This document shows, piece after piece, positions 4,447 to 27,463 of a stretch of DNA of 64,000 nucleotides. Made by a program: the position numbers and the translations under genes. The notes below the pieces were generated by a model that saw only the letters and a list, made by a program, of their open reading frames with translations, was not told the origin of the DNA and ran no database searches. The first letter of the stretch is position 1. Every line of letters starts with the position of its first letter. This DNA comes from Actinophytocola xinjiangensis (GTDB taxonomy: Bacteria > Actinomycetota > Actinomycetes > Mycobacteriales > Pseudonocardiaceae): the NCBI RefSeq assembly GCF_001921215.1, contig NZ_MSIF01000016.1, positions 124,001-188,000 on the forward strand, given 5' to 3'.

Positions 4447-4683
4447 TCAGCTCGCGGCCAGTGCGGTGTCGACCAGCGCGGACAGCTGGCCGACGTCGGA
4501 CACCGCGAAGTAGGTCCGCAGGTCCAGGCGGACCCCGAACTCGTCCTCGATGTCGGCCAGCAGCCGCAGGGCGGACAGGCTGACCCAGTTGGGCAGCCCC
4601 TCGAACCTGGTGTGCTCGGTGACGTCCGGGTTCTCGGTCACCCGTTCGACCAGGTCCACCAGGGTGGCGGTGATCTCAGACAT
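4447..4683 (-). CDS. discrete acyl carrier protein paired with FkbH
   Basis: 78 residues with the four-helix ACP pattern. The phosphopantetheine site is probably Ser35 in LPNWVSLSALRLL, where the usual D-S-L is V-S-L. ACPs that partner FkbH-type glyceryl transferases often carry a WxSL site like this. It ends with a helix (VGQLSALVDTALAAS). Its ATG overlaps the 3' end of the FkbH gene by 8 bp, so it is co-translated with it. Expected role: carrier of the three-carbon unit (glyceryl-S-ACP) made by FkbH. This is the last gene of the operon. Confidence 0.9.
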   Translation of the reverse strand: MSEITATLVDLVERVTENPDVTEHTRFEGLPNWVSLSALRLLADIEDEFGVRLDLRTYFAVSDVGQLSALVDTALAAS

Positions 4684-6541
4684 GGGCGGTCTGCTCCTTT
4701 CGACACAACTCGATCCAGGCGGGTGCCGGCGGCACGTCGGCGACCGCGACGCGGTACCGGGTGGCGCCCTCGTGCTCGTCAACCGGCTGGAAGCCGGTCA
4801 GCAGGCCCGACGCCGCCCGGTTGCGCTCCCCCGGCCGGTACAGCGCGTGCAGCGCGGACACGCCCGAGGCCGCCGCACGTTCGGCGAGGTCGGCCAGGAC
4901 CGCGTGCTCCACGCCTCGGGAGAACACCCGGCAGCTCATGACCATGTTCGTCACGGTCCACTCGGCACCGGTGCGCAGCCACACCGCCGACACCACACCC
5001 TCCCGGCCGAAGCGGTCCTCCACCTCGACGCCCAGCAGCAGCCGGTCGGGGTCGGCGGCATAGGCGAGGGTGTCGGCCTCGGTGTGCGCGCGCGGGTTGA
5101 GGTTGAACTGGTTGGTGCGCAGCCCCAGCTGCACCAGCCGGGGCAGGCTGTACTCGTCGGCCTCGGACACCGTGACCCGCAGCCCCAGGCTCGCCAGGTA
5201 GTCCGCCGGCGAGGACATCGACGCGGCGAACTCCTCACGCCGGGCCCGCGCCTGGTACAGAGCGGTGCGGTCGCGGTCGGTGGCCGTGGTGGCCAGGGTC
5301 GCGAACAACCCCGGCTCCAGCACCGCCAGCGCGTGTCCGGAGGGGTCGCCGGCGACCTGGACCACGGCCACCTCGGGCAGTTGCTCGCGCACCAGCGCGC
5401 ACTCGAAGGAGCTGTCGTCGACGAAGACCACCGAGTCCAGTCCGAGGTTCAGCGATGCCACGATCTGGCGGATGTTCTCGTCCTTGCGGCCCCAGTTCGC
5501 CACCGTGGTGACGAAGTCCTCCGGCTGGACGGTCAGCTCGGGATGGGTGGCCAGGACCTGTTCGACCAGCGCCGGTTCGTTCTTGCTGCACACCGCCAAC
5601 AGCACGCCCTGGCGCCGCAACGCCACCAGCGCCCGCTGCAACTCGGTGAAGCAGTTGCCGGGGTAGCGGCCACCGACCTCGATGCCGTGCGGCCCGTCGT
5701 CGCCGAGGACACCGCCCCACAACGTGTTGTCGAGGTCGACGACGACGAGCTTGCGGGCCCTGCCGGCCACCGCCCGGCACAACGCGGCGGCCTCCCGCAC
5801 GTACTCCCGTTCCACGCCGGGGGTCCAGGCCATGGACGCGAACCGGTACAGCCGTTCGTCGCGCAGGGCCGCGTCGTGGTCGGTGAGCAGTGCCTCCAGG
5901 TCGAGCACGTGCACCGACGGTGAGGTGTCGGCCAGCCCCAGCAGCCGCACGTTCAGGTCCCGCCACAGCGCGCCCAGCCGCGCGCGCTCGGCGAACCCGA
6001 CCACCTTGCGGCGTTCGCCGCGCGGCAGGGCGACGGTGTTGAGCACCACGGCGCCCGCCGAACGGGAACCGAACTCCGCGACGGCGCCGGCCAGCGCCGA
6101 AAGCCTGCTGCCGGCGAGGTCCGCGAGCCCGGCCAGCTCGGTCGGGTCCCAGGTCATGGGCATCAGGGCGCCGTCGTGGAGCAGGCACAGGGTCACGTCC
6201 GGCCCGAACCGCGCCAGTTCGGAGTCGGGGTCGGTCAACTGGGTCATCAGCTGGTCGAACCCGGTGACCAGCACCGTCGGGTCGATCCCGGCGCGCACCA
6301 GCTCGACGCGCAGCAGCGGGGCGACGTTCTCGGCGGTGAACGTGCCGACCACGGCGACCCGCAGCGGACGGGCCCGGTGCCCGGGCGGCGCGATCCGTGA
6401 CAGCGCCAGCCCGTCGAGCAGCCGGCCGGCGTCGCGGGTCTCGGCGAACCCGACCAGGTCGTCCAGGGCGGCGAGCACCCCCGGGTCGGCGTTCTCGCGC
6501 GCCGCCCGGATCCGCGCCGTGACGGGGTTGTCCTTGCTCAT
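4676..6541 (-). CDS. FkbH-family HAD-IIIC glyceryl transferase/phosphatase (intact)
   Basis: 621 residues, a normal length for FkbH proteins. The N-terminal alpha/beta domain begins RVAVVGTFTAENVAPLLR (about residue 60). The HAD domain carries VVVDLDNTLWGG with nucleophile/acid pair Asp269/Asp271. Motif II lies near LLAVCSKNEP and motif III near DENIRQIV...VFVDDSSFE. A C-terminal GNAT-like region contains TNQFNLNPR. Family members take 1,3-bisphosphoglycerate, dephosphorylate it and load glycerate onto an ACP, giving glyceryl-ACP for tetronates or for hydroxy/methoxymalonyl units. All key residues are present, unlike the decayed FkbH-like domains elsewhere in this cluster. Confidence 0.93.
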   Translation of the reverse strand: MSKDNPVTARIRAARENADPGVLAALDDLVGFAETRDAGRLLDGLALSRIAPPGHRARPLRVAVVGTFTAENVAPLLRVELVRAGIDPTVLVTGFDQLMTQLTDPDSELARFGPDVTLCLLHDGALMPMTWDPTELAGLADLAGSRLSALAGAVAEFGSRSAGAVVLNTVALPRGERRKVVGFAERARLGALWRDLNVRLLGLADTSPSVHVLDLEALLTDHDAALRDERLYRFASMAWTPGVEREYVREAAALCRAVAGRARKLVVVDLDNTLWGGVLGDDGPHGIEVGGRYPGNCFTELQRALVALRRQGVLLAVCSKNEPALVEQVLATHPELTVQPEDFVTTVANWGRKDENIRQIVASLNLGLDSVVFVDDSSFECALVREQLPEVAVVQVAGDPSGHALAVLEPGLFATLATTATDRDRTALYQARARREEFAASMSSPADYLASLGLRVTVSEADEYSLPRLVQLGLRTNQFNLNPRAHTEADTLAYAADPDRLLLGVEVEDRFGREGVVSAVWLRTGAEWTVTNMVMSCRVFSRGVEHAVLADLAERAAASGVSALHALYRPGERNRAASGLLTGFQPVDEHEGATRYRVAVADVPPAPAWIELCRKEQTAHV

Positions 6542-6553
6542 CTCTCTCCTTAC

Positions 6554-9109
6554 TCACACCCGCACCAGCGTGCAGATCCAGTGCATGCCGCTGCTCGTGC
6601 TGGTCAACGCCACCAGGTCGCCCGGCGACAGCTCACCGGCGGCCGTCAGCCGCCTCAACGCGAGCAGCTGGTCGGCGCAGCCGACGTGTCCGTGGTCGAG
6701 CGCGGTCTCGATGTTCGTGTCCGCCAGCGGCACCCCGAGATCCTTCGCGAGGTCGGCGAGCTGGCGCATGTTGTCGTTGAAGTGCAACACCTTCCGCAGG
6801 TCCGAACGGGACACCCCGGCCCGGGCGCACGCCCGGTCGACGACCTCGCGGCCGCGTTCGCGGATCATCGACACGAACGCGAACATCCGCCGCACGTCGC
6901 CGGCGAAGAAGGCGTCCAGGCGGTCCTGCGGGTTGCCGACGACGGGCTGGTCCGCCTCGCCGGCCAGGAACGGCCGGGCGCCCGCGCCGACCTCCATCCG
7001 CATGAAGTCGGCGTACTCGCCGTCGGTGAGCACCTCGGTCACCAGCCACCGGCAGGTGCCGTGGTCGCGGCGCACCACGGCGGCGGCGGCGCCGTCGGAG
7101 TACACGCTGGTGTTCATCGCCATCCGGTTCCAGTACGGGTCGACGACGCGGTTGGCGCCGATCACCACCGCCGTGTGGTACTCGGGGTGCACGGCGAACT
7201 TGCCGGCCACGAGGTCGAACGCGGCCACCCCGCCGCCGCAGGCCTGGTTCACCAGCAGCGCCTCGGCGTTACGGGCGCCGAGCCGGGCCTGGGTGGCCGC
7301 CGCCGGATCCCAGTACAGATACTCGGCGAGGTCGGCGATCGCGAGCACCACCAGGTCGACCTCGGCGGGGTCGACACCGGCGTCGGCCAGTGCCCGCTCC
7401 CCCGCCTCGACGGCCAGGTCGGTGAGCCCGACGCCCTCGGGCGCGCGGTGGAAGCGGCGGTAGCCCCAGCCGTTCACGCGGTCGAGCTCGTCGGTGTAGG
7501 TGGGGGCGTGCTCGGCGACCTCCGACGGTTCGGGCAGGGCGGCGCCGAACGCGACGATGCCCAGGTCGACCGCCGGACCGTTCTCGGCCCGTGCCGGGGC
7601 CGGGGCGGGTTGGTCCCAGGTCAGCACGTGGATCCCGGTGTGCTGGGCCGCCGCGTCGCGCAGGAACGTGCGGGCGACGGAGTTGTGCCTGGTCTCGGTG
7701 AGGCGGAACACGAGGCCGGGGCACCCGTGTTCCGCGCCGCGCCGACGCAGCTCGGTGAGCACCGCGTCCTCGACGCGCCGGCCCAGGACCGGGCAGGACA
7801 GCGAGAACACCTCCACCGTGCCGTACCCGTCCGCCCAGGTGACCGCGACCGCGCCGCTGACCCCGTGGTCGCCGAACCGGTCCCGGACCGAGACCGCGAC
7901 CAGCTCACCGCCGTGGCCGGCGAGCTGGTCGGCCGTGCGGTCGTTGCCGAGGGTGAAGTCCTTGGCACGGCTGACGGTCTCGGCCACGGCCGCGAGGTGG
8001 TCGGTTCCCGGCGCGAAGGTCACCTCGACGTCGAGGCTCGCGACGAAGTCGTCCAGGGCGACCGACTCCGGCACGGCGACCAGCGGCCGTGGTGCCCGTT
8101 CCGTTCGCCGCTGCCGGGCCGGCGGGGGCCGGTCGAACAACGCGGTGTCGAGGAGTTCGGTCTCCCACAGCTCGGGGCGTTCGCCGAGTAGCACGCCGCC
8201 GTGGCGCTGGTGGCGCGCGGGGTCGGTGGTGACCACCGCCACCGACGCCGGTGGCAGCCCGAGCGCGACGGCCGGGTGCTCGCCTCCGTCGTGGACGGTC
8301 AGCTCGCTGTGGGCGACCAGCTCCGGGCAGTCGGCCGCGAGCCGGCCCCACAGCTCGCCCGGGTCCCCGGCCGCCAGGACCGCGAGCCTGGTGCCGCCCT
8401 CGTGCCAACCGCGGACCGCCGGCCGCAGCGCGGCGGCTCCGGCGGCGCCCAGGGCGGCGCCGTCGACCACCACCGCGCGGCAGGCGGCACCGAGGCGGGT
8501 CAGGACCAGCCGGGCGAGGCGGGTGCCGAGCAGACTGAACAGCTGCTCGGTGTAGGGCACCCTGGCGAGGGCGAACATGGTCGGGTGGTGGGCGGCGCCC
8601 TCGCCCAGCGCGCGGACCGGCTCGTCGAGGTCGGCGAGCAGCACGTTGGGCAGGCCGGTCAGCCGCTCCCGCACGGCCTGTCTGGCACGGGCGGCCTCGG
8701 CGGCCTCACCGGCGCCGAAGGTCCGCCTCGGTGTGGCCGGCAGGACGAAGACCAGCGCACCCGCCCACCGGTCGACCGTCGCCGCCGCCGCGTCGGCGAG
8801 GTCGAGCAGGTCGTTCGTCCACTGTGGATTGTCTGCCAGTTCCTCGAAGCGGGGCGAGACCACCAGCACGTCGGGCCGGAAGGCGGCCGTCCGGGCGGAG
8901 TCGTCCAGGCACTGGCGCATGATCTGGTCGATCGGGCCGACCAGGTGGTGCGACGGAAGGCCGGCGTCGTGCAGGGCGATGCCCAGGTAGGGCAGGAGCG
9001 GGTCGGCGGTGTAGCTGGCGAGCACGGCGACGGCCAGCCCGTCGGACCGGTCCCGGTCCGACACCGCCCGCCACGCGGTCCGCGCCTCCAACGGGGTGCG
9101 GGGGGTCAT
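6554..9109 (-). CDS. fusion: decayed FkbH-like domain + KASIII-like ketosynthase
   Basis: 851 residues from ATG 9109, in an ATGA overlap with the upstream ACP. Residues 20-500 follow the FkbH fold (VAVLASYTADPLLPYLGIAL, later FTLGNDRTADQLA and VFSLSCPVLGRRVEDAVL). The catalytic DxDxTLWGG is replaced by VVVDGAALG (about 213-221), so the HAD site is dead. From about 513 the protein is a KASIII: acyl-binding Cys624 in NQACGGGV and His776 in VLHFNDN. At the position of the usual Asn (GNTSAAS) there is DHGHVG with His808. Tetronate-type KASIII enzymes join glyceryl-ACP to a beta-ketoacyl chain; other KASIII relatives are O-acyltransferases. I know of no characterised FkbH-KASIII fusion. Confidence 0.85.
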   Translation of the reverse strand: MTPRTPLEARTAWRAVSDRDRSDGLAVAVLASYTADPLLPYLGIALHDAGLPSHHLVGPIDQIMRQCLDDSARTAAFRPDVLVVSPRFEELADNPQWTNDLLDLADAAAATVDRWAGALVFVLPATPRRTFGAGEAAEAARARQAVRERLTGLPNVLLADLDEPVRALGEGAAHHPTMFALARVPYTEQLFSLLGTRLARLVLTRLGAACRAVVVDGAALGAAGAAALRPAVRGWHEGGTRLAVLAAGDPGELWGRLAADCPELVAHSELTVHDGGEHPAVALGLPPASVAVVTTDPARHQRHGGVLLGERPELWETELLDTALFDRPPPARQRRTERAPRPLVAVPESVALDDFVASLDVEVTFAPGTDHLAAVAETVSRAKDFTLGNDRTADQLAGHGGELVAVSVRDRFGDHGVSGAVAVTWADGYGTVEVFSLSCPVLGRRVEDAVLTELRRRGAEHGCPGLVFRLTETRHNSVARTFLRDAAAQHTGIHVLTWDQPAPAPARAENGPAVDLGIVAFGAALPEPSEVAEHAPTYTDELDRVNGWGYRRFHRAPEGVGLTDLAVEAGERALADAGVDPAEVDLVVLAIADLAEYLYWDPAAATQARLGARNAEALLVNQACGGGVAAFDLVAGKFAVHPEYHTAVVIGANRVVDPYWNRMAMNTSVYSDGAAAAVVRRDHGTCRWLVTEVLTDGEYADFMRMEVGAGARPFLAGEADQPVVGNPQDRLDAFFAGDVRRMFAFVSMIRERGREVVDRACARAGVSRSDLRKVLHFNDNMRQLADLAKDLGVPLADTNIETALDHGHVGCADQLLALRRLTAAGELSPGDLVALTSTSSGMHWICTLVRV

Positions 9110-9345
9110 CGCGCGCACCCCTTCGTGGCGAGCACCGCGCGCAACGCGCCGACGGTCGGCACGGACCGCACCTCCTCGAACGCGAACGACACGCCGTAGG
9201 CCTCCTCCAGGGTCACCACCAGCTCCAGGTGGCGCAGGCTGGTCCACTCCGGCAGGGTGGCCGGCCCGTCCTCGTCGGTGACGCTGGTGACCGGCACCGC
9301 GAGCACGGCGGCGACCAGTTCGTTGAGCTGGGCCGACGCACTCAT
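9106..9345 (-). CDS. second discrete acyl carrier protein
   Basis: 79 residues. The four-helix ACP profile has a probable phosphopantetheine Ser36 in LPEWTSLRHLELV, then the usual acidic helix II (TLEEAYGVSF) and SVPTVGALRAVL. It sits between the MFS exporter and the FkbH-KASIII fusion with ATGA-type overlaps on both sides, which suggests fixed stoichiometry with the fusion. It resembles the FkbH-partner ACP at 4447-4683 more than the NRPS carrier domains. It could be the acceptor or donor carrier for the KASIII step. Confidence 0.88.
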   Translation of the reverse strand: MSASAQLNELVAAVLAVPVTSVTDEDGPATLPEWTSLRHLELVVTLEEAYGVSFAFEEVRSVPTVGALRAVLATKGCAR

Positions 9346-10730
9346 CGCCGCACCCCGGCCGGCACGGCCGCGTCCTCGTCGGTGTCCACGTCCGTCGGCA
9401 CGGTCGACGCCTCCGCCGGCGGTTCGGTGTCCTGGTCGGGCAGCAGGGTCTCCACCCGGCGGACCGACGGCGAGAGGAACGCGGCCACGGCGAGCGCGGT
9501 GCCCAGCACACCGATGACCACGAACATCAGCCCGATCGCACCGGCCTGCCCGGTGCCCACGAGCCAGCCCAGCGACTCGGCGCCGCCACTGCCCGGCGTC
9601 ATCCACGGGGTGATCACCGACTCGATCAGCGGGCCGGCCATCACCGTGGCGATCGGGATGGACATCTCCTCGACGAACTGGCGGGCCGCGAACACCCGGC
9701 CCTGCATGTGCGGCTCCACCTTCTCCTGCCACACGGTGTTGGTGTACCCGTCGATGATCGGGATGCACAGGTGCACGACGATCAGCGCGACGCCCAGGAA
9801 CAGGATCATGTCGGTGACGCCGTAGAGCACGCGGCCGACGAGGCTGAACGCGACGGTCGCCCACAGCACGCGGACCATCTTGTCCTTGGGGGACTTCAGC
9901 ACGCCGATGAGCAGGGCGCCCGCGACCCCGCCGATCGCGCCGGTGGCCAGGACCAGCGCGAGCGAGCCGGCGTCGTCGCCGGTACGGGCCAGGGCCATCG
10001 GGCGCAGCAGCAGGTAGCCGACGGAGGCCAGGACGTTGATGCCGATCAGGAACAGCTCCACGTTGCGCAGCGACTTGTTGCGCAGGATGTAGCGGAAGCC
10101 GGTCAGGCAGTCCTGCCAGAACTTCGGGCGCTGCTCACCCTCCGGTGCCTTCGGTGTGGGCGGCAGGGTCACCAGCATCACCGTGCCCACGGCGAACAGG
10201 AACGTCACCAGGTCGATCAGCAGCACGGTCTCCAGGCTGGCGACGGTCAACAGCATCGCGGCCACCAGCGGTGCGAACAGCTCGGGGGTGGAGCGCACCG
10301 CGAACATCATCGCGTTGCCCCGGGTGTAGTTGGCCTTCGCGAGCATCGTGGTGATGGTCGCCTGGAACACCGGGACCTGGAACGCCATGAACGAGCCGGA
10401 CACGAAGTTGATCAGGTACAGGTGCCACATGGCGGTGGAGTCGGTGGCGAACAGCACGACCATGGTCACCGTCGCGAGCCCGGAACCGAGATCGGACAAC
10501 AACATCGTGAGTTTTCGGTTCCACCGGTCGATGAACGTGCCGGCGACCGGGCTGAAGATCACCGTGCCGGCGAAGGCGAAGAACATGGTGAGGGCGAACT
10601 CGGTCGTGCTCCCGGTCGCGTCCCACACCCAGATACTGATGGCGAAGTTCGTCATCCTGGTGCCGATGACCGACAGGAACTGTCCGCACCAGAGGACGAA
10701 GAACGCGGCGAAACCGCTTGGTCGCAACAT
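9342..10730 (-). CDS. MFS transporter, probable product exporter
   Basis: 462 residues from ATG 10730 (MLRPSGFAAFFVLWCGQFLS). Twelve hydrophobic segments and the MFS loop 2-3 signature region around FIDRWNRKLTMLLSDLGSG place it with drug/macrolide-type MFS efflux proteins. A long hydrophilic tail rich in Pro, Thr and Asp (about the last 45 residues) follows the final helix. It lies inside the biosynthetic operon, 25 nt after the NRPS stop and overlapping the next ACP, so it probably exports the product and gives self-resistance. Confidence 0.9.
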   Translation of the reverse strand: MLRPSGFAAFFVLWCGQFLSVIGTRMTNFAISIWVWDATGSTTEFALTMFFAFAGTVIFSPVAGTFIDRWNRKLTMLLSDLGSGLATVTMVVLFATDSTAMWHLYLINFVSGSFMAFQVPVFQATITTMLAKANYTRGNAMMFAVRSTPELFAPLVAAMLLTVASLETVLLIDLVTFLFAVGTVMLVTLPPTPKAPEGEQRPKFWQDCLTGFRYILRNKSLRNVELFLIGINVLASVGYLLLRPMALARTGDDAGSLALVLATGAIGGVAGALLIGVLKSPKDKMVRVLWATVAFSLVGRVLYGVTDMILFLGVALIVVHLCIPIIDGYTNTVWQEKVEPHMQGRVFAARQFVEEMSIPIATVMAGPLIESVITPWMTPGSGGAESLGWLVGTGQAGAIGLMFVVIGVLGTALAVAAFLSPSVRRVETLLPDQDTEPPAEASTVPTDVDTDEDAAVPAGVRR

Positions 10731-10755: not shown

Positions 10756-13700
10756 CTAGCGGTTGCGCAGGCGCAGGAGCGCGGCCTGGACGTCCCTCCG
10801 GAAACCGTCGGCGGTCTCCCGGTCGTAGACCTCGGCGTTGTAGCCGATGTCCAGCCGAAGCCGGCCGCCGACGATGACCCCGCCGACGTCCAGGTCGTAG
10901 GGCCACACACCGGTGCCGTCGTCGGTCGGGCCGTAGTCGGCCTGGCACACGGCGAACAGGTCGTCGGTCCCGGTGACCTCGTCGAAGCCGAAGTCGCCCA
11001 TGTAGTTGACGGCGAGCCGGGGGGCCCGCACCTCGGCGAGCCGCGCGCGGGACTCGCTGCCCGGCCCGGCGAAACGCAGGTGCCCGTAGCCGATCCCGTT
11101 GCGGGGCACCGCGGCCAGCTGCGCGGCCACCTCCGCGACGCCGGCCTCGTCGCCGGTCCCGGGAGTGAGGCGGACCAGCACCGGGTACAGCACCTGGAAC
11201 CAGCCGACCGTGCGGGAGGGATCCAGGTCGGCGAACAGGTCCTCCCGGCCGTGCCCGGTGGTCGCGAGCAGACAGCTGTCGCCGCCGGTTCGCGCGGCGA
11301 CGGCGCCGGCCACCGCCCAGACGATCAGGTCACGCACGCCGACCCGAAGCCGCCGGGTGAGGTCGTGCAGCCCGACGGTCTGCTCGACGGTCAGGGTGCC
11401 GCTGACCGCCGCGTCGGCGGCGAGCCGGGCCACCGCGTCCGGGCGGTCCCTGGGCACCGAGGCGTCCTCGGCGCAGGTCTGGGCGAGCCAGTACGGCAGC
11501 TCCGCCGAGGCATCCCAGGTGGACAGTCGGGTGGCCCAGGCGCCGTAGGAGGCGGGCAGGGCCGCGAGATCGGGCCGCTCCCCTCCCGCGCACAGCGCCT
11601 GGAGGTCGCCGAGCAGCACGTCGCGGGAGATCGCGTCGGTGACCAGGTGGTGGGCCACGACCAGCAGACGGTCGGGCCGGTCCGCGCCGGTCGCGAAGTG
11701 CTCCACCCGGCAGGTCGGTCCCTCGGCGAGGTCGAGCGATCCCTGTGCCGAGGCGGCGAGCCTCGCCGCCTCGGCGTCCAGCTCGGCACCGCGCAGCCCG
11801 CTCAGGTCGTGGCTGGTGAACGGGACCGCGTCGGCACCCTCGGCGCGGAACTGGGTGACGGTGCCCTCGGCGTCCCGGCGGAACCGCAGGCCCAGGGCGG
11901 CATGCCGGCCGGCCAGCGCGGTCACCGCCTCGGCCAGCGTGGACACCGGCAGGGGACGCCGGACCTCCAGGTAGTAGGGATGGTTGAACCACGCCGGGTC
12001 GGTCATGCTCGGCGCGACGCACTCGAACCACCACCGCTGCGCGGGGGTCAGCGGGACCTCACCGCCGGGCTCCTCGTGGCACACCGGCGCCACCGGAACA
12101 TCCTGGGCCCTCGCGTCGAGGTCGAGCGCGGCGATGGTGCGCCGCTCGGTCAGCTCCCGCGCCGAGAGCCGCAGCCCGGCGTCGACCGCGTGGAAGGCCA
12201 CCGCGATGGCCTGCAGGGAGTCGCCGCCCAACTCGTAGAAGTCGTCGTGGATCCCGACGACCGGCACCCGGAGGACCTCGCGGAGGATCGCGGCCAGGGT
12301 GCGTTCCCGTTCGGTGCGGGGCTCGTTGTCGCCGCGTCCCGGGGAGAACCCGGTGGCCACGGCGTCGGCGATCCGCGCCGCGGTGGTCAGCTCGCCGGCG
12401 ACGTCGAGCGCGAGAGGGTTCGGCTGACCGGGGGTGCCGGTGGGAGGCGCGTCCAACGTCCAGAGACGCTGCGCGTAGCCGAGCGGGGTGTCCCGGGGCA
12501 GCTCGACGGCACCCTCGGGAACCGCGCCCACCCGGGCGGCGCCGACGGCGACCAGTGCCGCCAGCTCGGGGTCGGTGGGCGTCGAGCTGAACACCACCGC
12601 CCGCCCGGCGGCGGCCTGGGCACGCACCAGCCGGGCCGTCTCCCCCGCGCCCGAGCCGGCGGGATCGAGCGCGAGCGCCGGCACCGGGCCGTGCGTGTCC
12701 CGGTAGGCCGTCCTGGCGACCCAGGTGGCGACGGCCGTCGCGACCTGGGCGGGATCGTGCTCGTCCACGCCGTAGCGACGCGTCCAGCCGGCCAGGTCGA
12801 TCACCTCGGCGACCTCGCCGAGGCGTGCGGTGAGTCCGGCGAGGACACCTGCCCACGACTGGCCGGCGAGGGCCGGCGACGGTGGACAGAGCCCGACGAC
12901 GAGCCCGGCGGCGGTGCGTTCGCGGTAGCCGGCCACGGCGTCGAGCAGGTCCGCCAGCGCCCGTTCCAGGACCGCGACCCCGGCCACCAGGTCGGTCGTG
13001 CCGGCCAGCAGGTCCTCCCAGCGCAGCAACAGCACGTGCAGCGCGGCCGGATCGTCGCCGAACGGGCCGTCCTGGTCCAGCAGCGGACGCAGAACCTGGC
13101 CGGGGGTCGAGCGGCGCACCGACAGGCCGGGGGCGCCGAGCAGGTCCGACCAGAACCGCAGCGTGGGCGCCAGGTCGTCCGGCCCGAACGGCGACCCGAA
13201 CGCCGACCGGAACGACGATGCGAGCACGACCGGGCGGCCGGGGCCGGCGGCGGTCGCGGCGGCTCCGACGGCCGAGTCCGGCGCGGCGGTGAGCCGGTCC
13301 ACCAGGTCGCAGTAGGCGGCGACCAACCGGCCCGCCTCGTCCGGCCCGTACTGGTCGAGCGGGTGGCTCAGATCGACCTCCAGCTCGTCGCCCTGCCAGT
13401 TCAGGGTGAGCAGCGCGTCGAAGTCCGCGACGGCCGACCCGATCGGCAGCGCCGTCACGTCGAGGCCGGCGAAGTCCGGGTCCTCGTCGGGGAGGTCGGC
13501 GTAGTTCAGCACGCACCGCAGCGGGTTGCGCGCCGTCGCCGGTGACACGCGCATCGGCAGGGGGAACGGCAGTTGGTGCGCCTGCGCCTGGGTCACCACC
13601 TGGTGCACGCGCCGGGCCAGGCCACGGAAACTGGGGCGGCCGGCGACGTCGAGCCGCAGCGGCACCAGGTCGGCGAAGCAGCCCGGCACGTCCCGCGACT

Positions 13701-16700
13701 CCGGGGCGTCCCGGCCGAGCACCGGCATGCCGACCACGAGGTCGGACTCGCCGGTCTCGGCATGCAGCAGCGTCGCGAACACCGCGAGCAGCACCGCGTG
13801 CGGGGTCACGCCCTCCCCGCGGGCCAGCTCACGCACGGCCAGGCCGGTGGCGGCCGGCAACCGCCGGGTGACCCGCCCGCCGACCCCACCGGCCGCCGGC
13901 GCGCTCCCGGCCGGCAGGGCGACCGGCGCCGGCGCGTCGCGCAGCGCCGTACGCCAGAAGTCGAGCGTGGTGTCGAGCTCCGGGCCGGACAGGCGCCGCT
14001 GCTGGTGATGGGCGAAGTCCCGGTACCGCAGCACCGGCTCGGCCAGCGGACTCGGCGCACCGGCGGCGAACGCGTCGTACAGTGTGGACAGTTCGGTGAG
14101 CAGGATCCCCCACGAGGCGGCGTCGCACACGATGTGGTGCATGCCGACCAGCAGGTAGTGGTCGGTGTCGGTGGCCCGCAACAACTCCACCCGCAGCAGC
14201 GGCCCCTCATCGAGCGGGTACCGGTACTCCGCGTGGGCCGACACGTGCGCCGCGACCTCACGGTCCACGTCCGCGCCGAGCGCGCGCACCCCGCACCACA
14301 CCGGCAGCGCGTCCCGCACGACCGGGACGGGCACGCCGTCGCGCTCGGCGAAGGTCGTGCGCAACACCTCGTGCCGGCGGGCCACCTCCACGACGGCGGC
14401 CTCGAACGCGGCCACGTCCAGCGGGCCGCGCAGGCGTGCGGCGAACGTCGTGTTGCCGCCGGTCCCGTCCTCGCCGAGCCGGCCCGCCGCCCACAGCCGT
14501 CGCTGCACGGCCGAGGCGACCGGCTCGGCGTCCACCCTGGACAGGGCCGGGGTCGACGCCGGGGGCGCGTCGGCCGCACCGTCGAGCACGGCGGCGAGGC
14601 CGGCGACGGTGGGATGGGTGAACAGGTCGTGGAGCGTCACCTCGGTGCCGAACTCGCCGCGCACGCGCGAAAGCAGTTGGGTGGCGAGCAGGGAGTGGCC
14701 GCCGAGCGCGAAGAAGTCCGAGTTCGCCGCCACGTCCGCGACGCCGAGCACCTCGCACCACACCGCCGCGAGGCGGCGCTGGGTCTCCGTGGCCGGGGCG
14801 ACCGCCTCGCCGGTCTGGCCGGTCCCGCTCAACCGGGGCCGGCTCCGCGCCGCCACCACGGCTGGGTCGGCGACCTGCTCGGCGAGGAACGCGGCCCGTT
14901 CGGGATCCGGTTCGGGCAGCGGCAGCCGGCCGGTCACGATCACGGCGAGGGCGGCGAAGTACTCCGGCGTGTACGGGATGTGCGCGAGCGCGTCGGTGGC
15001 CTGGTCGAAACCGGCCGGCGCCGGGTGGTCCTCCGCCCAGTCGACCGTCACGCCCGTGACCCGTGCCCGCAGCACCGCGAGCCGGTCGTCGAGCCGGGCG
15101 AACAGCCCCTCCCAGCCGCGGGACGCCGCCTCCGGCGAGGCCGGGCAGCGCACCAGCGCCAGCGGCGCCGTGCCGCGCGCGCGGAACGCGGTGACCGCCT
15201 GGGCGAGGTCGGTGAACGCCGCGTCGAGCACGGCCGCCACCTCCTGGTCCCCGGCCTCGTCACCGAGGTGGCGCAACCAGTCCTCCCAGCGCAGCAACGC
15301 GATCGTCGTCTCGTCGGAGGTCAGCAGGTGCTGGACCAGCTGGCCGTACGGGGCGGCGACGACGTCCGTGGCGTGGCGGCGCAGGTCGAGCACGAACCGC
15401 AGCGGGTCCAGCAGCGGGGCGGCCGTGAACGTCGCGGCCACCGCGACCCGGTCACGGCGGACCGACGGGAGCGTCACGAGCGCGACGTCGGGGGCGGCGG
15501 TCAGCTCGGTGAGGGTGGCCAGCACCCGGTCGGCGAGCCCGGCGGCGGTGCCGTCCAGGTACAGGTCGGCGTCGTGGTCGAGGACCAGCTCGAACCGGTC
15601 GCCGTCGCGGACCAGGGTGACGAACAGGTCGAAGTCGGTGAGCTGGTTGTCGACCAGGGCTGGGGCGAACCGCACCCCGGCCGCGCTCCCCGGCTCCCCG
15701 CCGGCGTCCGCGACGGTGAACATGACCTGGAACAACGGGTTCACGCCGGGGTCGCGGACGGGCGCGAGCTCCTCCACGACCCGCGCGTAGGGCGCGGCCT
15801 GGTGGCGGAACGCGTCGCCGACCGTGCGGTGCGCGCGCCGGGCGAGGTCACGCCCGGTCGGTTCCCCGGACAGGTCCAGGCGCAGCACGAGCATGTTCGC
15901 GAACGAGCCGATCAGCGGCTCCAGCGCCACCTCGGTCCGGCCGGCCGACGGCATGCCGATCACGAGGTCGTCCTGGCCGGTGGCCTGCCACAGCGCCGAG
16001 GTCAGCCCGGCGAGGGCCACGGCGTTCACCGTCACCCCGGATTCCCTGGCGAACGCCAGCACCGCCGAGCACAGCGCGGCCGGCAGCGGCCGGACGGTAC
16101 GACCGCCCCGGTGTCCCTGGACGACCGGCCGGGGACGGTCGGGCCGAAGGGTGGAGGTCGCGGGCGCGCCGGCGAGCACGTCGCGCCAGTGGTCCAGGTG
16201 GGAGCGCAGCTCCGCCCGCACCCCCGGGCGGGCCTGGCGGGCGGCGAACGCGGTGAAGCTGTCCCGCGGCTCGGGCAGCCGGGCGGGTGCGCCGGCGGCG
16301 TGCTGTCCGTACAGCGCGACGAGGTCGGTGGTGAACACGCCGCCGGACCAGGCGTCGAACACGATGTGGTGCGCGGTGCCGAGCAGCAGGTGCTCCTCGG
16401 TGTCGAGCACCAGCAGCCGGGTCACCAGCAGCGGGCCGGTCCGCAGGTCCAGCGGGGTGGCGCCGAGGTCGGCGGCCTCGCGGTCCTCGGCCTCGGCCCG
16501 CTCCCGGGTGGACAGTCCGGTCAGGTCGACCACCGGCAGCTCGACGGCGACGTGGTCCCGCACGGTCTGGAAGGGACCGTCGGCGTCCTCGCCGAACACC
16601 AGCCGCAGCGACTCCTGCCGGCCGACCAGCGCGGTCAGCGCGGCTCGCAGCGCGGTGACGTCGAGGGGGCCGGTGAGCCGCAGGGCGAACGGGATGTTGT

Positions 16701-16881
16701 AGGCGGCGCGGTCCGGGGCGAGTTGGTCGAGGAACCACAGCTGCGCCTGGGTGAACGACAGGGGTAGGCGGTGCGGGGCGGGAAGGGCGGCGCCGAGCCG
16801 GCGCGACAGCAGCTCACGCTGGTCGGGGCGTAACTCTGCCAGCTCGGCCGACAGATCGGCGAGATCGGTGAGGTCGGTCAT
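10756..16881 (-). CDS. adenylation-less NRPS: C-X-T-C-X-T-E with FkbH-N-like X domains
   Basis: 2041 residues. C1 (about 38-470) has HHIVFDAWS (His171-172, Asp176). X1 (about 478-660) begins VAVAATFTAAPLLDPLRFVL and contains PYGQLVQHLL and LLRWEDWL. T1 carries Ser730 in GGHSLLA. C2 (about 785-1200) has HHIVCDAAS (Asp920). X2 (about 1217-1500) repeats the X signature (SSFRSAFG, LLLRWEDLL) and ends with a decayed HAD-like stretch, PALALDPAG. T2 carries Ser1555 in GGDSLQA. The last domain is epimerisation-like: HHLVTDAIS (Asp1749), TVGWFQVLYPVL, GIGYGHLRF and NYMGDFGF. No A domain (no TSGSTGRPK) and no thioesterase are present. X resembles the N-terminal domain of FkbH at 4676-6541. Loading in trans is implied. 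Leu17 is a rare TTA codon. Confidence 0.88.
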   Translation of the reverse strand: MTDLTDLADLSAELAELRPDQRELLSRRLGAALPAPHRLPLSFTQAQLWFLDQLAPDRAAYNIPFALRLTGPLDVTALRAALTALVGRQESLRLVFGEDADGPFQTVRDHVAVELPVVDLTGLSTRERAEAEDREAADLGATPLDLRTGPLLVTRLLVLDTEEHLLLGTAHHIVFDAWSGGVFTTDLVALYGQHAAGAPARLPEPRDSFTAFAARQARPGVRAELRSHLDHWRDVLAGAPATSTLRPDRPRPVVQGHRGGRTVRPLPAALCSAVLAFARESGVTVNAVALAGLTSALWQATGQDDLVIGMPSAGRTEVALEPLIGSFANMLVLRLDLSGEPTGRDLARRAHRTVGDAFRHQAAPYARVVEELAPVRDPGVNPLFQVMFTVADAGGEPGSAAGVRFAPALVDNQLTDFDLFVTLVRDGDRFELVLDHDADLYLDGTAAGLADRVLATLTELTAAPDVALVTLPSVRRDRVAVAATFTAAPLLDPLRFVLDLRRHATDVVAAPYGQLVQHLLTSDETTIALLRWEDWLRHLGDEAGDQEVAAVLDAAFTDLAQAVTAFRARGTAPLALVRCPASPEAASRGWEGLFARLDDRLAVLRARVTGVTVDWAEDHPAPAGFDQATDALAHIPYTPEYFAALAVIVTGRLPLPEPDPERAAFLAEQVADPAVVAARSRPRLSGTGQTGEAVAPATETQRRLAAVWCEVLGVADVAANSDFFALGGHSLLATQLLSRVRGEFGTEVTLHDLFTHPTVAGLAAVLDGAADAPPASTPALSRVDAEPVASAVQRRLWAAGRLGEDGTGGNTTFAARLRGPLDVAAFEAAVVEVARRHEVLRTTFAERDGVPVPVVRDALPVWCGVRALGADVDREVAAHVSAHAEYRYPLDEGPLLRVELLRATDTDHYLLVGMHHIVCDAASWGILLTELSTLYDAFAAGAPSPLAEPVLRYRDFAHHQQRRLSGPELDTTLDFWRTALRDAPAPVALPAGSAPAAGGVGGRVTRRLPAATGLAVRELARGEGVTPHAVLLAVFATLLHAETGESDLVVGMPVLGRDAPESRDVPGCFADLVPLRLDVAGRPSFRGLARRVHQVVTQAQAHQLPFPLPMRVSPATARNPLRCVLNYADLPDEDPDFAGLDVTALPIGSAVADFDALLTLNWQGDELEVDLSHPLDQYGPDEAGRLVAAYCDLVDRLTAAPDSAVGAAATAAGPGRPVVLASSFRSAFGSPFGPDDLAPTLRFWSDLLGAPGLSVRRSTPGQVLRPLLDQDGPFGDDPAALHVLLLRWEDLLAGTTDLVAGVAVLERALADLLDAVAGYRERTAAGLVVGLCPPSPALAGQSWAGVLAGLTARLGEVAEVIDLAGWTRRYGVDEHDPAQVATAVATWVARTAYRDTHGPVPALALDPAGSGAGETARLVRAQAAAGRAVVFSSTPTDPELAALVAVGAARVGAVPEGAVELPRDTPLGYAQRLWTLDAPPTGTPGQPNPLALDVAGELTTAARIADAVATGFSPGRGDNEPRTERERTLAAILREVLRVPVVGIHDDFYELGGDSLQAIAVAFHAVDAGLRLSARELTERRTIAALDLDARAQDVPVAPVCHEEPGGEVPLTPAQRWWFECVAPSMTDPAWFNHPYYLEVRRPLPVSTLAEAVTALAGRHAALGLRFRRDAEGTVTQFRAEGADAVPFTSHDLSGLRGAELDAEAARLAASAQGSLDLAEGPTCRVEHFATGADRPDRLLVVAHHLVTDAISRDVLLGDLQALCAGGERPDLAALPASYGAWATRLSTWDASAELPYWLAQTCAEDASVPRDRPDAVARLAADAAVSGTLTVEQTVGLHDLTRRLRVGVRDLIVWAVAGAVAARTGGDSCLLATTGHGREDLFADLDPSRTVGWFQVLYPVLVRLTPGTGDEAGVAEVAAQLAAVPRNGIGYGHLRFAGPGSESRARLAEVRAPRLAVNYMGDFGFDEVTGTDDLFAVCQADYGPTDDGTGVWPYDLDVGGVIVGGRLRLDIGYNAEVYDRETADGFRRDVQAALLRLRNR
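16831..16833 (-). promoter_or_regulatory. TTA leucine codon in the A-less NRPS
   Basis: In-frame codon 17 (Leu in AELRPDQ) is TTA on the coding strand. TTA is read by the bldA tRNA in streptomycetes and relatives, and its rarity at this GC content suggests developmental gating of translation near the start of the longest gene. Confidence 0.7.
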
Positions 16882-16893
16882 CTCGTTCCCTGG

Positions 16894-17090
16894 TCAGCGG
16901 ACGCTGCGCGGCCGGAGGTCGGTCCACACCTGCTCGATGTGGTCGAGGCAGTCGGCGCGCGGGCCGGTGAACCCCGCGTCGCGCCACCCCTCGGGGATCT
17001 CGCGCTCGACCGGCCAGAGCGAGTACTGGTCCTCGTGGTTGCGCACCACGCGGAAGCCGGGCTCGGCCGCGGTGGCCGGAACTGACGTGT

Positions 17091-17094
<4 letters not shown>
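16894..17094 (-). CDS. MbtH-like NRPS chaperone
   Basis: 66 residues with the family core: [15 protein letters not shown], then [12 protein letters not shown] and the C-terminal [14 protein letters not shown]. MbtH-like proteins bind NRPS adenylation domains and are needed for their folding or activity. The only A domains here are in the A-T and C-A-T proteins upstream in the operon, so one or both are its probable partners. The ATG overlaps the PKS stop (ATGA), and 12 nt separate it from the large NRPS. Confidence 0.97.
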
Positions 17095-20110
<3,016 letters not shown>

Positions 20111-20114
<4 letters not shown>

Positions 20115-23100
20115 CGCGGCCCCGCCTCCCCGGCGATCCGCCGCGCGCGGGCCGCCATCGCCCGCCGGCCGGCCCCGGAGGACGCGGGAACGGGTTGCTG
20201 GTCCCGTTCGCCGCGCTCGATGAACTCCGCGAGCCGCGCGACCGTCGGGTACCGGAACAGCTCCACCGCCGCCACGGCCACGCCCAGCGCCGCCTTCAGT
20301 CCGGAGTGGACCTGGACGAGCAGCATCGAGTTGCCGCCGAGGTCGAAGAAGTTGTCGTCGGCACCGACCTCGTCGAGCGCGAGCGTCGCCCGCCACACGC
20401 CCGCGATGGTCTGCTCCACGGGACCGCGCGGCGCGCGGAACGCGGTACTGAGCGCGGGCCGTTCCACGGTCGGCGCGGGCAGGCGCCGGTGGTCGAGCTT
20501 GCCGTTGGCCGTGGTCGGCAGGTCCGCCAGCGTGACGAACGCGGACGGCACGAGGTAGTCCGGCAGGACCCGCGACAGCTGGGCGCGCACCGCGTCCGCC
20601 GCCACCTCCGCACCCGCCTCCGGCACGACGTAGCCGACGAGGCGCCTGTCCCCCGGCCGGTCCTCGCGCACCACCACCGCGCAGCGCGCCACCCCGGCGC
20701 AGTCACCGAGCCTGGCCTGCGCCTCGCCCGGCTCGACCCGGTTGCCCCGGATCTTCACCTGGCCGTCGGAGCGCCCGAGGAACTCCAGGGTCCCGTCGGG
20801 CCGCCACCGGGCGAGGTCGCCGGTGCGGTACATCCGCGCGCCGGGTTCGGGCGCGTACGGGTCGGGGACGAACGCGGCGGCCGTGGCCCCCGGCCGGTCC
20901 AGGTACCCGCGACCGACCGGGGCGCCGCCGACACACAGCTCGCCGGCGATCCCGTCCGGCACCGGGCGCAGCCACTCGTCGAGCACGTGGATCCGGGCGC
21001 CGGTCATCGGCTCGCCGAGGGGGACGACCGGGCCGCCGGGATACCGCCCGGCGACGACCATGACCGCCGTCTCGGTGGGGCCGTAGGTGTTGCGGAACTC
21101 CCGGCCGGCCGACCACGCGGCGGCGACGTCGGCCGGGCAGGTCTCCCCGCCCACGGTCACCATCCGCAGCTCCGGCAGCTCGGCGGGGTCCATGGCCTGC
21201 AACGCGACCGGCGGCACGTCAAGGAAGGTGATCCGCCGCTGCCGCAGTGTGCGGGTCAGGTCGGGGCCGGGGACCCGGTCGTGCCGGCCCACCACGTGCA
21301 GTTGCGCGCCGGCCGCCAGCGCGGTCACGAAGTCGGACACGACGGCGTCGAAGCCCGGCGAGTGGAACTGGAGCACCCGGTCGTCCGGTCCCACCGGCAG
21401 CAGGTCGCCGATCGCGGCGCTCACCCCCGCCAGGCCCCGGTGGGTACTCACCACGCCCTTGGGCCGGCCGGTCGAGCCGGAGGTGTAGATGACGTACGCG
21501 GCCTGGTCGGGGTGGACGGGTACGGCGGGGGGCGGCGCCGGGGCGGGAGCGAGGGTGTCGAGGCGGTGCGTGTCCAGTCCCCCGGGCAGGCGCGTCCCGG
21601 TCGCGGTGTGCGCCAGCACGGTCGACACGCCCGCGTCCGCGATCAGCAGGCCGATCCGCTCCTCGGGCAGGTCCGGGTCGATCGGCACGTACACCGCGCC
21701 GGCGCGCAGCACTCCCAGGAAGGCGGCGACGGCGTCAGCGCACGCCGGCAGGCACACCCCGACCGGTGTCTCACGCCCCGCCCCGCCGGCGAGCAGCAGC
21801 GCGGCGAGCTGGTCGGCGCGGGCCATCAGCTCCCCGTAGGTGAGCCGTTCGGTGTCGGTCACCACCGCGATCCGGTCCGGTGCGCCGGCGGCGACCTCCG
21901 CGACCAGATCGGCCACCGGGCGGAACGGCGGTGCCGCCCGGCCCGCGCCCCGGCCTGCCGGCTCCCCAGGGGCGAGCAGCGGCAGGTCGGCGACCCGACG
22001 GTCCGGGTCAGCCAGCGCGGCGGTCAGCAGGGTGCGGACGTGGCCGGCGACCCGCCGCGCGGTGGCCTCGTCGAACAGCGAGGTCCGGTACTCCAGGCGA
22101 CCGTCGATGCCGTCGGGGCCGGGCACGAGGGTCAGGGTCAGGTCGAACACCGACGTGCCGGTGGCCACCTCGCGGCCGGTGACGGTGACCCCGGGCAGCA
22201 CCAGCTGCCGGGTCCAGGCGCTCTCCACGGCGAACATCACCTGCGCGAGCGGGGTGTTGCCGGGGTCGCGGTCGGGTCGCAGCCGGTGCACGAGCGTGTC
22301 GTAGGGCAGTTGCTGGTGGGTGATCGCCGCCAGCGTGGTGTCCCTGGCCCTGGCCAGCAGCTCCCGGAAGGTGGTGGTGTCGTCCATGGTGGCGCGCAGC
22401 GGCACGGTGTTGACGAACAGGCCGACCGCGTCCTCGGACGAGCGGGTGGTGCGCCCGGCGACCGGCGTCGCCACCACCACGTCGCGGTCGCGGCCGTACC
22501 GCAGCAGGGTGGCCTGCCACGCCGTGAGCAGCACCATGAACGGTGTGGCGTCGCACGCGGCGGCCAGGCGCCCGGCGCCGGTGGCCAGGTCGGCCGGCCA
22601 CCGGAACTCCAGCTCGGCGCCGGACTCGTCGAGGGTGAGCGGGCGGGGACGGTCCAGGGGCAGGTCGGTGGTGACCGGCGCGCCGGCCAGTTCGGCCCGC
22701 CAGAACGCCTCCAGCGCCGGGTCGTCGGACTCGGTCGCCACGTCGACGTGCCGTGGCGCCGGGTCGGGGACCGCACCGGCGTAGCAGCGGGACAGGTCGT
22801 CGAAGATCAGGCCCATGGTCCAGCCGTCACACGCGATGTGGTGCAGCCGCAGGTGGAACCGCCACCGCCCCGGCCCCTCTGGCACCAGGGTCGCGCGCAC
22901 CGGCGGGCCGGCGGTGAGGTCGAAGACCTCGTCGGCACCGGTCTCCTCGTCGGCGACGGTGAGCCGGGTCCTCGGGGACGCCTCGGGCAGCACGAGCTGC
23001 CACTGCTCGCCGTCGATCTCGGCGTAGAGCGTGCGCAGCGCCTGGTGTCGGGCCAGCACCAGGTCGAAGGCGCGCACCAGCGCGGCCACGTCGAGGTCAC

Positions 23101-23299
23101 CGGTCAGGGTCAGGTCGAAGTGCACCAGGCACATCGGGCTGCCGGGGTAGAGCTTGTCGTGCAACCACATCCGGCGCTGCGCGGAGGTGAGCGGGTGCAG
23201 GTCGTAGCGCGCGGGATCGTGGCGCAGGGCGCGCAGCAGCGCGATCCGCCGGCGCTCGGGCAACGCGTGCAACCGGTCGAGCAGGTCGGGTGTGGTCAT
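20111..23299 (-). CDS. NRPS module C-A-T
   Basis: 1062 residues. C (about 33-445) has HHIACDGW (His153-154, Asp158, Gly159) and the amide-forming pattern. A (about 460-890) has A3 YTSGSTGRPKG near 605-616, A5 NTYGPTE, A7 YRTGDLARW, A8 GRSDGQVKIRGNRVE and A10 NGKLD. T has GGNSM with Ser991. The tail RRAMAARARRIAG resembles NRPS ends that dock to a ketosynthase, matching the downstream PKS. A hand-read specificity code is D-A-S-D-T-G-T-V-M-K. It matches no code I can name, so the substrate is left open. It adds the second amino acid. Confidence 0.95.
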
Positions 23300-25152: not shown

Positions 25153-25273
25153 CGTGGTCCTCCCTGCGTCATCGCGTCCAGGGAGGAGTCTCGGCACGCT
25201 GCCTTCGATTACCTGCCGGCAGCGTTTCGCCGATGTTGCGGTTTCGTTCGACCGGTGCCGATGACCAGCGGTG

Positions 25274-27259: not shown

Positions 27260-27463
27260 GAAATCGCATCCCCCCGTCGAACCGTGAAACAGACCGTTCG
27301 TACGGAACAGCACACGATCACATGCGACAGAGCCGACACATGGGTGACCAGTACCCAGATTCCACACCCGGCGGACCGGCACGCGGTTCGATCACCGATA
27401 CCGACCAGTTTGCCGGAATTGGCCTCACCGCGTCGGCGAGCTCAGTGCTCCCGTTCGAACGCG
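27260..27463. promoter_or_regulatory. divergent intergenic region upstream of the SARP regulator
   Basis: About 200 bp, clearly less GC-rich than its flanks (for example ccgttcgtacggaacag and gatcacatgcgacag). It separates the minus-strand SARP gene from the plus-strand membrane gene and should hold both promoters. The cgttcgtacggaacg-like segment near 27295-27308 is a short imperfect dyad that could be an operator. No -10/-35 pair is clear enough to name. Confidence 0.4.

Follow-up and report, generated by a model that had tools for sequence, protein, structure and literature searches.

A nonribosomal peptide synthetase with FkbH N-terminal domains in place of adenylation domains, and its conserved phosphatase-dead FkbH neighbor, in Actinophytocola xinjiangensis

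The window analyzed here, a stretch of 64,000 nucleotides from Actinophytocola xinjiangensis (contig NZ_MSIF01000016.1, positions 124,001 to 188,000), contains an uninterrupted open reading frame at 10756-16881 on the minus strand, encoding a nonribosomal peptide synthetase (NRPS) of 2041 amino acids. The NRPS has two modules. In each, the place of the adenylation (A) domain, between the condensation (C) and carrier (T) domains, is occupied by a homologue of the N-terminal domain of FkbH, known as NEX. We propose that the T domains of these two C-NEX-T modules are loaded in trans by a split FkbH system, a reading that we favor with moderate confidence; its constant components would be a phosphatase-dead FkbH relative, here called psFkbH, and an acyl carrier protein (ACP1).

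Pfam finds three condensation and two PP-binding domains in the NRPS, and no AMP-binding domain. All three C-type domains retain HHxxxD (residues 171, 915 and 1744), as a preliminary description of this DNA had stated, and the carrier serine is present in both T domains (GGHS at residue 727, GGDS at residue 1552). The layout proposed there, C-X-T-C-X-T-E without A domains, holds except at its end, where the epimerization (E) domain can only be called E-like. The terminal domain is of the epimerase type, but with 54 bits to TIGR01720 it stays under the cut-off of 74. The motif of NRPS E domains is EGHGR, with the catalytic Glu; here it reads TGHGR, thus epimerase activity is doubtful, and the Glu position is T or A in the 11 relatives listed. 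No thioesterase (TE) domain was found by Pfam in the four assembly-line proteins of the cluster.

The two intervening domains, X1 (226 residues as cut) and X2 (about 318 residues as cut), each lie between C and T; for X2 the earlier estimate of 200-280 residues was too short. Pfam gave no match for X1 at E<=5 and one sub-threshold match of X2 to an unrelated family (18 bits, cut-off 25), and its FkbH_N model reports neither domain. In hhalign comparisons, the X1 family was set against a profile of 57 FkbH sequences and matched its N-terminal part over 177 columns (probability 100%, E 1.5e-42). X2 alone reached 98.8% (E 4.2e-17), and adding one relative to it gave 99.5% (E 4.5e-23), with 301 aligned columns that extend through the HAD region to the LWTLD stretch. 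By these profiles X1 and X2 are homologues of the FkbH NEX domain, with a resemblance beyond chance, as had been read from the sequence, and the decayed HAD-like end of X2 proved to be a relic of the FkbH phosphatase. The phosphatase motif DLDNTLW reads ALALDPAG in X2 and is missing from X1 together with its region, and both domains lack the C-terminal FkbH acyltransferase part with its SC motif. When aligned with the A domains of the window, the X1 family scored 0.1% and X2 with its relative 0.07%; together with the lack of AMP-binding in Pfam, this rules out that X is a truncated A domain.

The AlphaFold2 model of X1 (mean pLDDT 92.9) has an SGNH-like fold. Its three best PDB chains in Foldseek are the GDSL esterases 7e16 and 8ik1 and the FkbH-like protein 3slr (E 7.6e-5 to 2.2e-4), so structure prediction, proposed earlier as a check, also points away from an A domain; two more matches below 0.001, with TM-scores near 0.3, look like chance. 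The X2 model, only moderately confident (pLDDT 75.5), gave no PDB match at E<=0.001, and PDB sequences searched with the NEX alignment profile returned two chance-level matches only. In an alignment of 43 NEX sequences, X1 carries the majority residue or a common alternative at the signature positions [ST]FTA.P, APY.Q, R.ED.W and D...D...H.PYT. X2 retains Q46, L51, R63 and D66, lacks S/T16, T18, D158, D162, Y169 and T170, and has a His and a Pro aligned near 166 and 168. Eight of the nine clusters with both domains in this alignment combine one intact and one decayed NEX: the decayed one is X2 in the window and in loci L045, L046, L054, L055 and L056, and X1 in L059 and L060, while both are intact in L051.

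The same alignment bears on whether NEX could itself be catalytic, as an SGNH-type transacylase whose Ser/Thr-Asp-His set takes up the unit and hands it over to the T domain of the same module. S/T16 is present in 42 of the 43 rows, D162 in 33 (Glu in 4) and H166 in 34, and the GDSL esterases matched by the X1 model would fit such a role; however, the full set is missing in the window X2 and eight other rows, position 16 is mostly Thr, and the DxxxH spacing is one longer than the DxxH of the SGNH active site. We consider a catalytic NEX improbable.

The NRPS is not an isolated case. X1 matches occur in 14 of 200 family genomes, and a profile search of genome contigs with five aligned X1 sequences gave 75 loci, whose layouts were read with purpose-built domain models. 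After removal of duplicates between collections, the search for other C-X-T NRPSs suggested in the preliminary description yielded 20 distinct actinobacterial C-NEX-T-C-NEX-T clusters: the window; L045-L050 and L055 (Lentzea); L051 (Streptosporangium); L052 (Amycolatopsis); L053 (S. diastatochromogenes); L054, the same as L135 (an actinomycete metagenome-assembled genome, MAG); L056 (Saccharothrix); L059-L061 (Streptomyces); and G142, G400, G429 and G845 contig 30. In L052 the model missed the second X (C-NEX-T-C-T), which was recognized by eye from its RWADL stretch, and in L053 the contig end cuts the NRPS before T2. A ketosynthase-acyltransferase-carrier (KS-AT-T) protein lies upstream in 17 of the 18 clusters whose upstream side was examined, the other being L054, with none within 8.5 kb. 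Six Lentzea relatives (L045-L050) have two tandem T domains after X2, and the HHxxxD position of the second C domain reads HQAVCD in L052 and HPIVCD in L055.

The partner proposed for these NRPSs is encoded downstream. The preliminary description reckoned with one FkbH, but the window cluster holds two FkbH-type proteins, a canonical one (4676-6541) and a phosphatase-dead one fused to a KASIII-like domain (6554-9109, 851 residues). The canonical FkbH has the full set of features, namely NEX, DLDNTLWGG (residue 269) and SCRVF (residue 536); it matches the FkbH-like protein 3slr by sequence, and Pfam FkbH_N gave it 24.5 bits (cut-off 27) in one scan and, over the cut-off, 27 bits in another. psFkbH retains the N-terminal domain and the acyltransferase-part motif SCPVLGR, with S438 and C439 invariant across 10 aligned rows, and reads VVVDGAAL at the DLDNTLWGG position; the HAD model gave no match in its relatives. 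Every stand-alone FkbH-type acyltransferase part (FAT) listed retains the Cys motif, and the HAD-less ones have lost DLDNTLW.

An ACP1 match and a HAD-less NEX-FAT protein are each present in 19 of 19 clusters with downstream sequence. The two weaker cases are L051, where the psFkbH gene runs off the locus and its second half was seen only in a whole-genome search, and L059, where psFkbH is broken over three overlapping frames (L059:13346-16693; a sequencing error or a broken gene). For L135, L136 and L137, psFkbH is a model match only. Among the other 59 NEX loci of the 75-locus scan, 57 have HAD and two (L063, L074) do not, and a separate HAD-less FkbH was found in none of the 59, 27 of which are shorter than 20 kb; L057, a stand-alone NEX protein with ACP1, E1/E2 and psFkbH, was set aside from this comparison. 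Genome searches with the psFkbH alignment scored three to four candidates per genome, so their tallies are lower bounds. At least 13 matches at E<=1e-80 came from 297 family genomes; one of these matches, encoded in the window genome and with its HAD motif intact, was set aside. Among the matches listed, 11 of the remaining 12 psFkbH-like loci adjoin a C-NEX-T NRPS; the twelfth (G050, L217) adjoins a stand-alone NEX protein, ACP1 and E1/E2, and its psFkbH copy shows NEX but no FAT domain in its frame. At least one of 396 phylum genomes, the window's own, matched at 1e-40, and at least 27 of 394 class genomes at 1e-30; at 1e-80, among the matches listed, G1056 is the only class genome besides that of the window. 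In two cases a HAD-less FkbH and an NRPS carrier domain are joined within one protein: L221:7831-12414 (G1056), NEX-deadHAD-FAT-T-E-like beside E1/E2 genes with its Cys in TCPVLGKGVE, and L063, C-NEX-FAT-T with the HAD region missing.

This association suggests loading in trans by a separate partner, and because psFkbH and ACP1 are the conserved gene neighbors, trans-loading is the best fit. The earlier proposal of loading in trans can be kept in this form, with psFkbH and ACP1 as the constant partner instead of canonical FkbH. The latter adjoins the NRPS in 10 of 19 clusters, was not found there in the other nine, and was rejected as a universal loader; of nine genomes searched whole for FkbH, two (L061, L051) have psFkbH itself as their only matches. 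Loading with amino acids by the A domains of the neighboring A-T and C-A-T proteins, also raised in the preliminary description, gained no support, because both are modules with T domains of their own. The cluster does contain A domains and an MbtH gene, yet this route would leave the constant psFkbH, ACP1 and NEX unexplained, and we regard it as highly improbable. As a separate observation, L057:9875-11368 and L217:8961-10052 each encode a stand-alone NEX with an apparent second, decayed NEX, a free X domain outside an NRPS, in gene sets that contain ACP1, E1/E2 and psFkbH.

The supply genes around this constant core vary. FkbH, a second carrier protein (ACP2) and KASIII occur together in 7 of 19 clusters, window included, and with E1a/E1b/E2 in addition in three; six clusters have E1/E2 without FkbH, among them G142, which has KASIII. 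E1/E2 were named by Pfam in one cluster and elsewhere by models built from it. The FkbH-ACP-KASIII set would be a glyceryl supply, and glyceryl, as first suggested, is the likely unit in the window cluster, where no E1/E2 match lies near the NRPS; related NRPSs adjoin E1/E2 genes instead, whose enzymes probably supply a C2 unit.

The KASIII-like domain deserves separate consideration. Its closest solved relative is ChlB3 (7eqi, E 9.7e-20), which we take to be an acyl shuttle. The KASIII (FabH) active site is Cys-His-Asn; here the Cys is present and a His stands at the Asn position, and alignment with FabH 2ebd places a Phe at the His position and a His one residue earlier. A Cys-His-His triad was considered and dropped, as this His is one residue off the FabH His. 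It is possible that this domain, rather than psFkbH, is the loader, moving glyceryl from ACP2 straight to the T domains with psFkbH as a mere scaffold. In favor of this, it is fused to psFkbH in the window, it resembles ChlB3, and the dnacin KASIII DinQ is assigned acyl-unit loading on an ACP (PMC7570522). However, the target proposed for DinQ is that ACP, not an NRPS carrier (PMC7570522), and 8 of the 19 clusters that share this type of NRPS and psFkbH yielded no KASIII; we consider a KASIII loader unlikely. Ordinary tetronate chemistry, in which KASIII carries out both the condensation of glyceryl-ACP2 with the beta-ketoacyl chain and the release, the C-NEX-T modules being passive relics, seems very unlikely: the HHxxxD motifs and T serines of the window are intact and the two-module layout is kept in 20 clusters, eight of them without KASIII, even though X2 is decayed, no TE domain is present in the four assembly-line proteins, and FkbH, ACP and a FabH-like enzyme are members of the tetronate glycerate operon (PMC7489565).

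We therefore return to the split FkbH system, which may work as follows. An ancestral C-FkbH-T module would have kept only its SGNH-fold NEX as a platform, intact in X1 and decayed in X2, while psFkbH, a relative of stand-alone FkbH with the phosphatase motif lost and the conserved Cys kept, would supply the acyltransferase half. FkbH would make glyceryl, the probable unit in the window cluster, on ACP2, and the KASIII-like domain would hand it on. psFkbH would take this small hydroxyacyl unit from ACP1, via its Cys, and deliver it to the T domains, docking through NEX. The platform reading of X in the preliminary description has partial support. C1 would then join the beta-ketoacyl chain of KS-AT-T to the hydroxyl of the unit as an ester.

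Several points weigh against this scheme. It rests on homology, on motifs lost or retained and on gene association, from which we infer the chemistry, that is, the order of acyl transfer, NEX as the dock, glyceryl as the unit and ester formation, as well as Cys439 of psFkbH as the nucleophile, from its conservation. The second module may be idle in some clusters, because X2 of the window is decayed and the second C domains of L052 and L055 lack HHxxxD. In the C-domain tree, which was also consulted for ester-type C domains, C1 and C2 fall in clades of their own, apart from the C domains found ahead of in-line FkbH. Given the short loci of the comparison set, a distant partner may have escaped notice there. 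Finally, 3 of the 19 clusters, all from Streptomyces, have no supply cassette within the loci seen; E1 homologues with 31-37% identity exist elsewhere in these genomes, none at the listed places of the cluster contigs.

Trees give some indication of the history. The C-domain tree, built from 84 of 108 rows after near-copies from L047-L049 and Microbispora were taken out, places C1, C2 and the terminal domains each on one side of a branch (SH-aLRT 98, 100 and 100), so the layout arose once in the sampled clusters. In a tree of 66 chosen NEX domains, X1 and X2 come together (88) on the side of in-line FkbH (92), neither support being starred, and psFkbH clusters with a stand-alone FkbH encoded in the window genome (99, starred); G142, G400, G429 and G845 contig 30 are in neither tree. 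The pattern is in line with a history in which a stand-alone FkbH first became the trans partner of a C-FkbH-T module, which then lost its own HAD and acyltransferase parts. On contig C1 of the window genome (L043:6350-20000) lies a second NRPS/polyketide synthase (PKS) cluster. It encodes an ACP1-like protein and a stand-alone, HAD-intact FkbH, the closest relative of psFkbH; in its in-line C-FkbH, the acyltransferase part occupies a second, overlapping reading frame.

It is already known that NEX occurs in a C-NEX-T module (BurF, PMC12304814) and that FkbH can replace an A domain (vioprolide, corramycin and others). BurF, from the malleicyprol pathway (2025), is a C-NEX-T-Red terminal module. 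Its T domain receives an alpha-hydroxy acid in trans; its C-NEX-T joins a beta-ketoacyl chain to this acid as an ester, and a mutant of the C active-site His gave no product. The authors of that work suggest a contact between NEX and the transfer protein, and they report no residue that would lend itself to mutation (PMC12304814). The window NRPS has the same arrangement, with NEX (about 244 residues in BurF) between C and T and the A domain missing (PMC12304814). Unlike BurF, with one module and a reductase, it has a tandem pair of modules and ends in an E-like domain. BurJ/BurH load BurF, using ATP, whereas the constant partner here is a HAD-dead FkbH with an ACP; the likeness to bur is by description, not by sequence. 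L074:9626-12313, from a Ramlibacter MAG, encodes NEX-T followed by an apparent reductase, an order like the BurF end, with the serine-free carrier motif GGNVH.

FkbH at the A-domain place loads glycerate (PMC8949500), and the C-X-T layout is common to the vioprolide, cystomanamide and corramycin NRPSs (PMC8949500, PMC10099666), with whose kind of in-line FkbH domains X1 and X2 join in the NEX tree. Those FkbH domains carry phosphatase and acyltransferase in line, whereas the window NRPS has NEX only, plus the HAD relic in X2 (PMC8949500, PMC10099666). In the dnacin pathway, two-component transketolases and an ACP supply a hydroxyethyl-derived unit, and KASIII is proposed to load the ACP (PMC7570522). 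As in the dnacin/naphthyridinomycin C2-unit system, E1/E2-like enzymes, an ACP and KASIII would provide a hydroxy unit for an NRPS module that lacks a functional A domain; in dnacin an inactive A domain fills the place, and the available part of that paper describes neither NEX nor psFkbH (PMC7570522). Gene sets of KASIII, ACP1-like, E1 and E2 near NRPSs without NEX (L138-L141) resemble these C2-unit genes. FkbH, ACP and a FabH-like enzyme form the core of the tetronate glycerate operon (tetromadurin; PMC7489565) and are common to the window, where psFkbH and the C-NEX-T modules come in addition; genes of the Agg4/Agg5 type were not noticed in the window cluster, in which no model-based search was aimed at them. 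In the portions of published work searched, BurF (PMC12304814) is the only description met of NEX in place of A; a tandem C-NEX-T family, a phosphatase-dead FkbH as trans-loader and exchangeable supply genes were not found described.

The family offers many natural NEX examples as well as natural fusions, and its constant partner has a single predicted catalytic Cys; the role of NEX, left open by the malleicyprol work, thus becomes testable in actinomycete proteins. If the proposal is true, exchangeable supply genes, rather than A domains, decide which monomers these NRPSs use, which bears on product prediction and engineering. More tentatively, and at somewhat less than even confidence, these NRPSs may form a trans-loading class comparable to trans-AT PKS, with modules that keep only a NEX platform, a dedicated phosphatase-dead FkbH as the shared acyltransferase, and interchangeable cassettes (bisphosphoglycerate or E1/E2 route) choosing the hydroxyacyl unit; after a beta-ketoacyl module, the products would then be peptide tetronates or beta-ketoesters.

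Table 1. Features of the NRPS and its cluster, in window positions
Feature	Position	Strand	Basis
NRPS, 2041 aa, C1-X1-T1-C2-X2-T2-(E-like)	10756..16881	-	Pfam domains, motifs
C1 condensation domain, HHIVFD	15472..16767	-	Pfam, motif
X1, NEX domain (FkbH N-terminal type, SGNH-like fold), at A-domain place	14800..15477	-	hhalign, AlphaFold2 pLDDT 92.9, Foldseek, residue table
T1 carrier domain, GGHS	14587..14775	-	Pfam, motif
C2 condensation domain, HHIVCD	13252..14526	-	Pfam, motif
X2, decayed NEX, then relic of FkbH HAD phosphatase	12304..13257	-	hhalign, residue table, AlphaFold2 pLDDT 75.5
T2 carrier domain, GGDS	12112..12306 (limits approximate)	-	Pfam, motif
Terminal E-like condensation domain, TGHGR instead of EGHGR	10777..12051	-	Pfam, TIGR01720, motif
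psFkbH: NEX, dead HAD, FkbH-type acyltransferase part with Cys439; N-terminal half of 851-aa fusion; predicted trans-loader	7571..9109	-	
KASIII-like domain, C-terminal part of 851-aa reading frame	6554..7561	-	Pfam, PDB search
ACP1	9106..9345	-	reading frame; conserved beside psFkbH
Canonical FkbH, DLDNTLWGG and SCRVF; predicted maker of glyceryl-ACP2	4676..6541	-	Pfam FkbH_N, 3slr match, motifs
ACP2	4447..4683	-	reading frame
MFS exporter (start inferred)	9342..10730	-	Pfam
MbtH-like protein	16894..17094	-	named from sequence reading; homologues beside relatives
PKS module KS-AT-T (start inferred), no ketoreductase (KR) found	17091..20114	-	Pfam
NRPS C-A-T	20111..23299	-	Pfam
NRPS A-T (true start further downstream, uncertain)	23296..25641	-	Pfam

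The neighboring genes are on the same strand, with A-T, C-A-T, KS-AT-T and MbtH upstream of the NRPS, and the MFS exporter, ACP1, the psFkbH/KASIII-like fusion, canonical FkbH and ACP2 downstream. Pfam gave no KR match in the PKS module; in AT domains, the motif HAFH denotes malonyl. A possible SARP-type regulator adjoins the cluster at 25274-27382 on the minus strand (BTAD 21.4 bits, cut-off 22.1).

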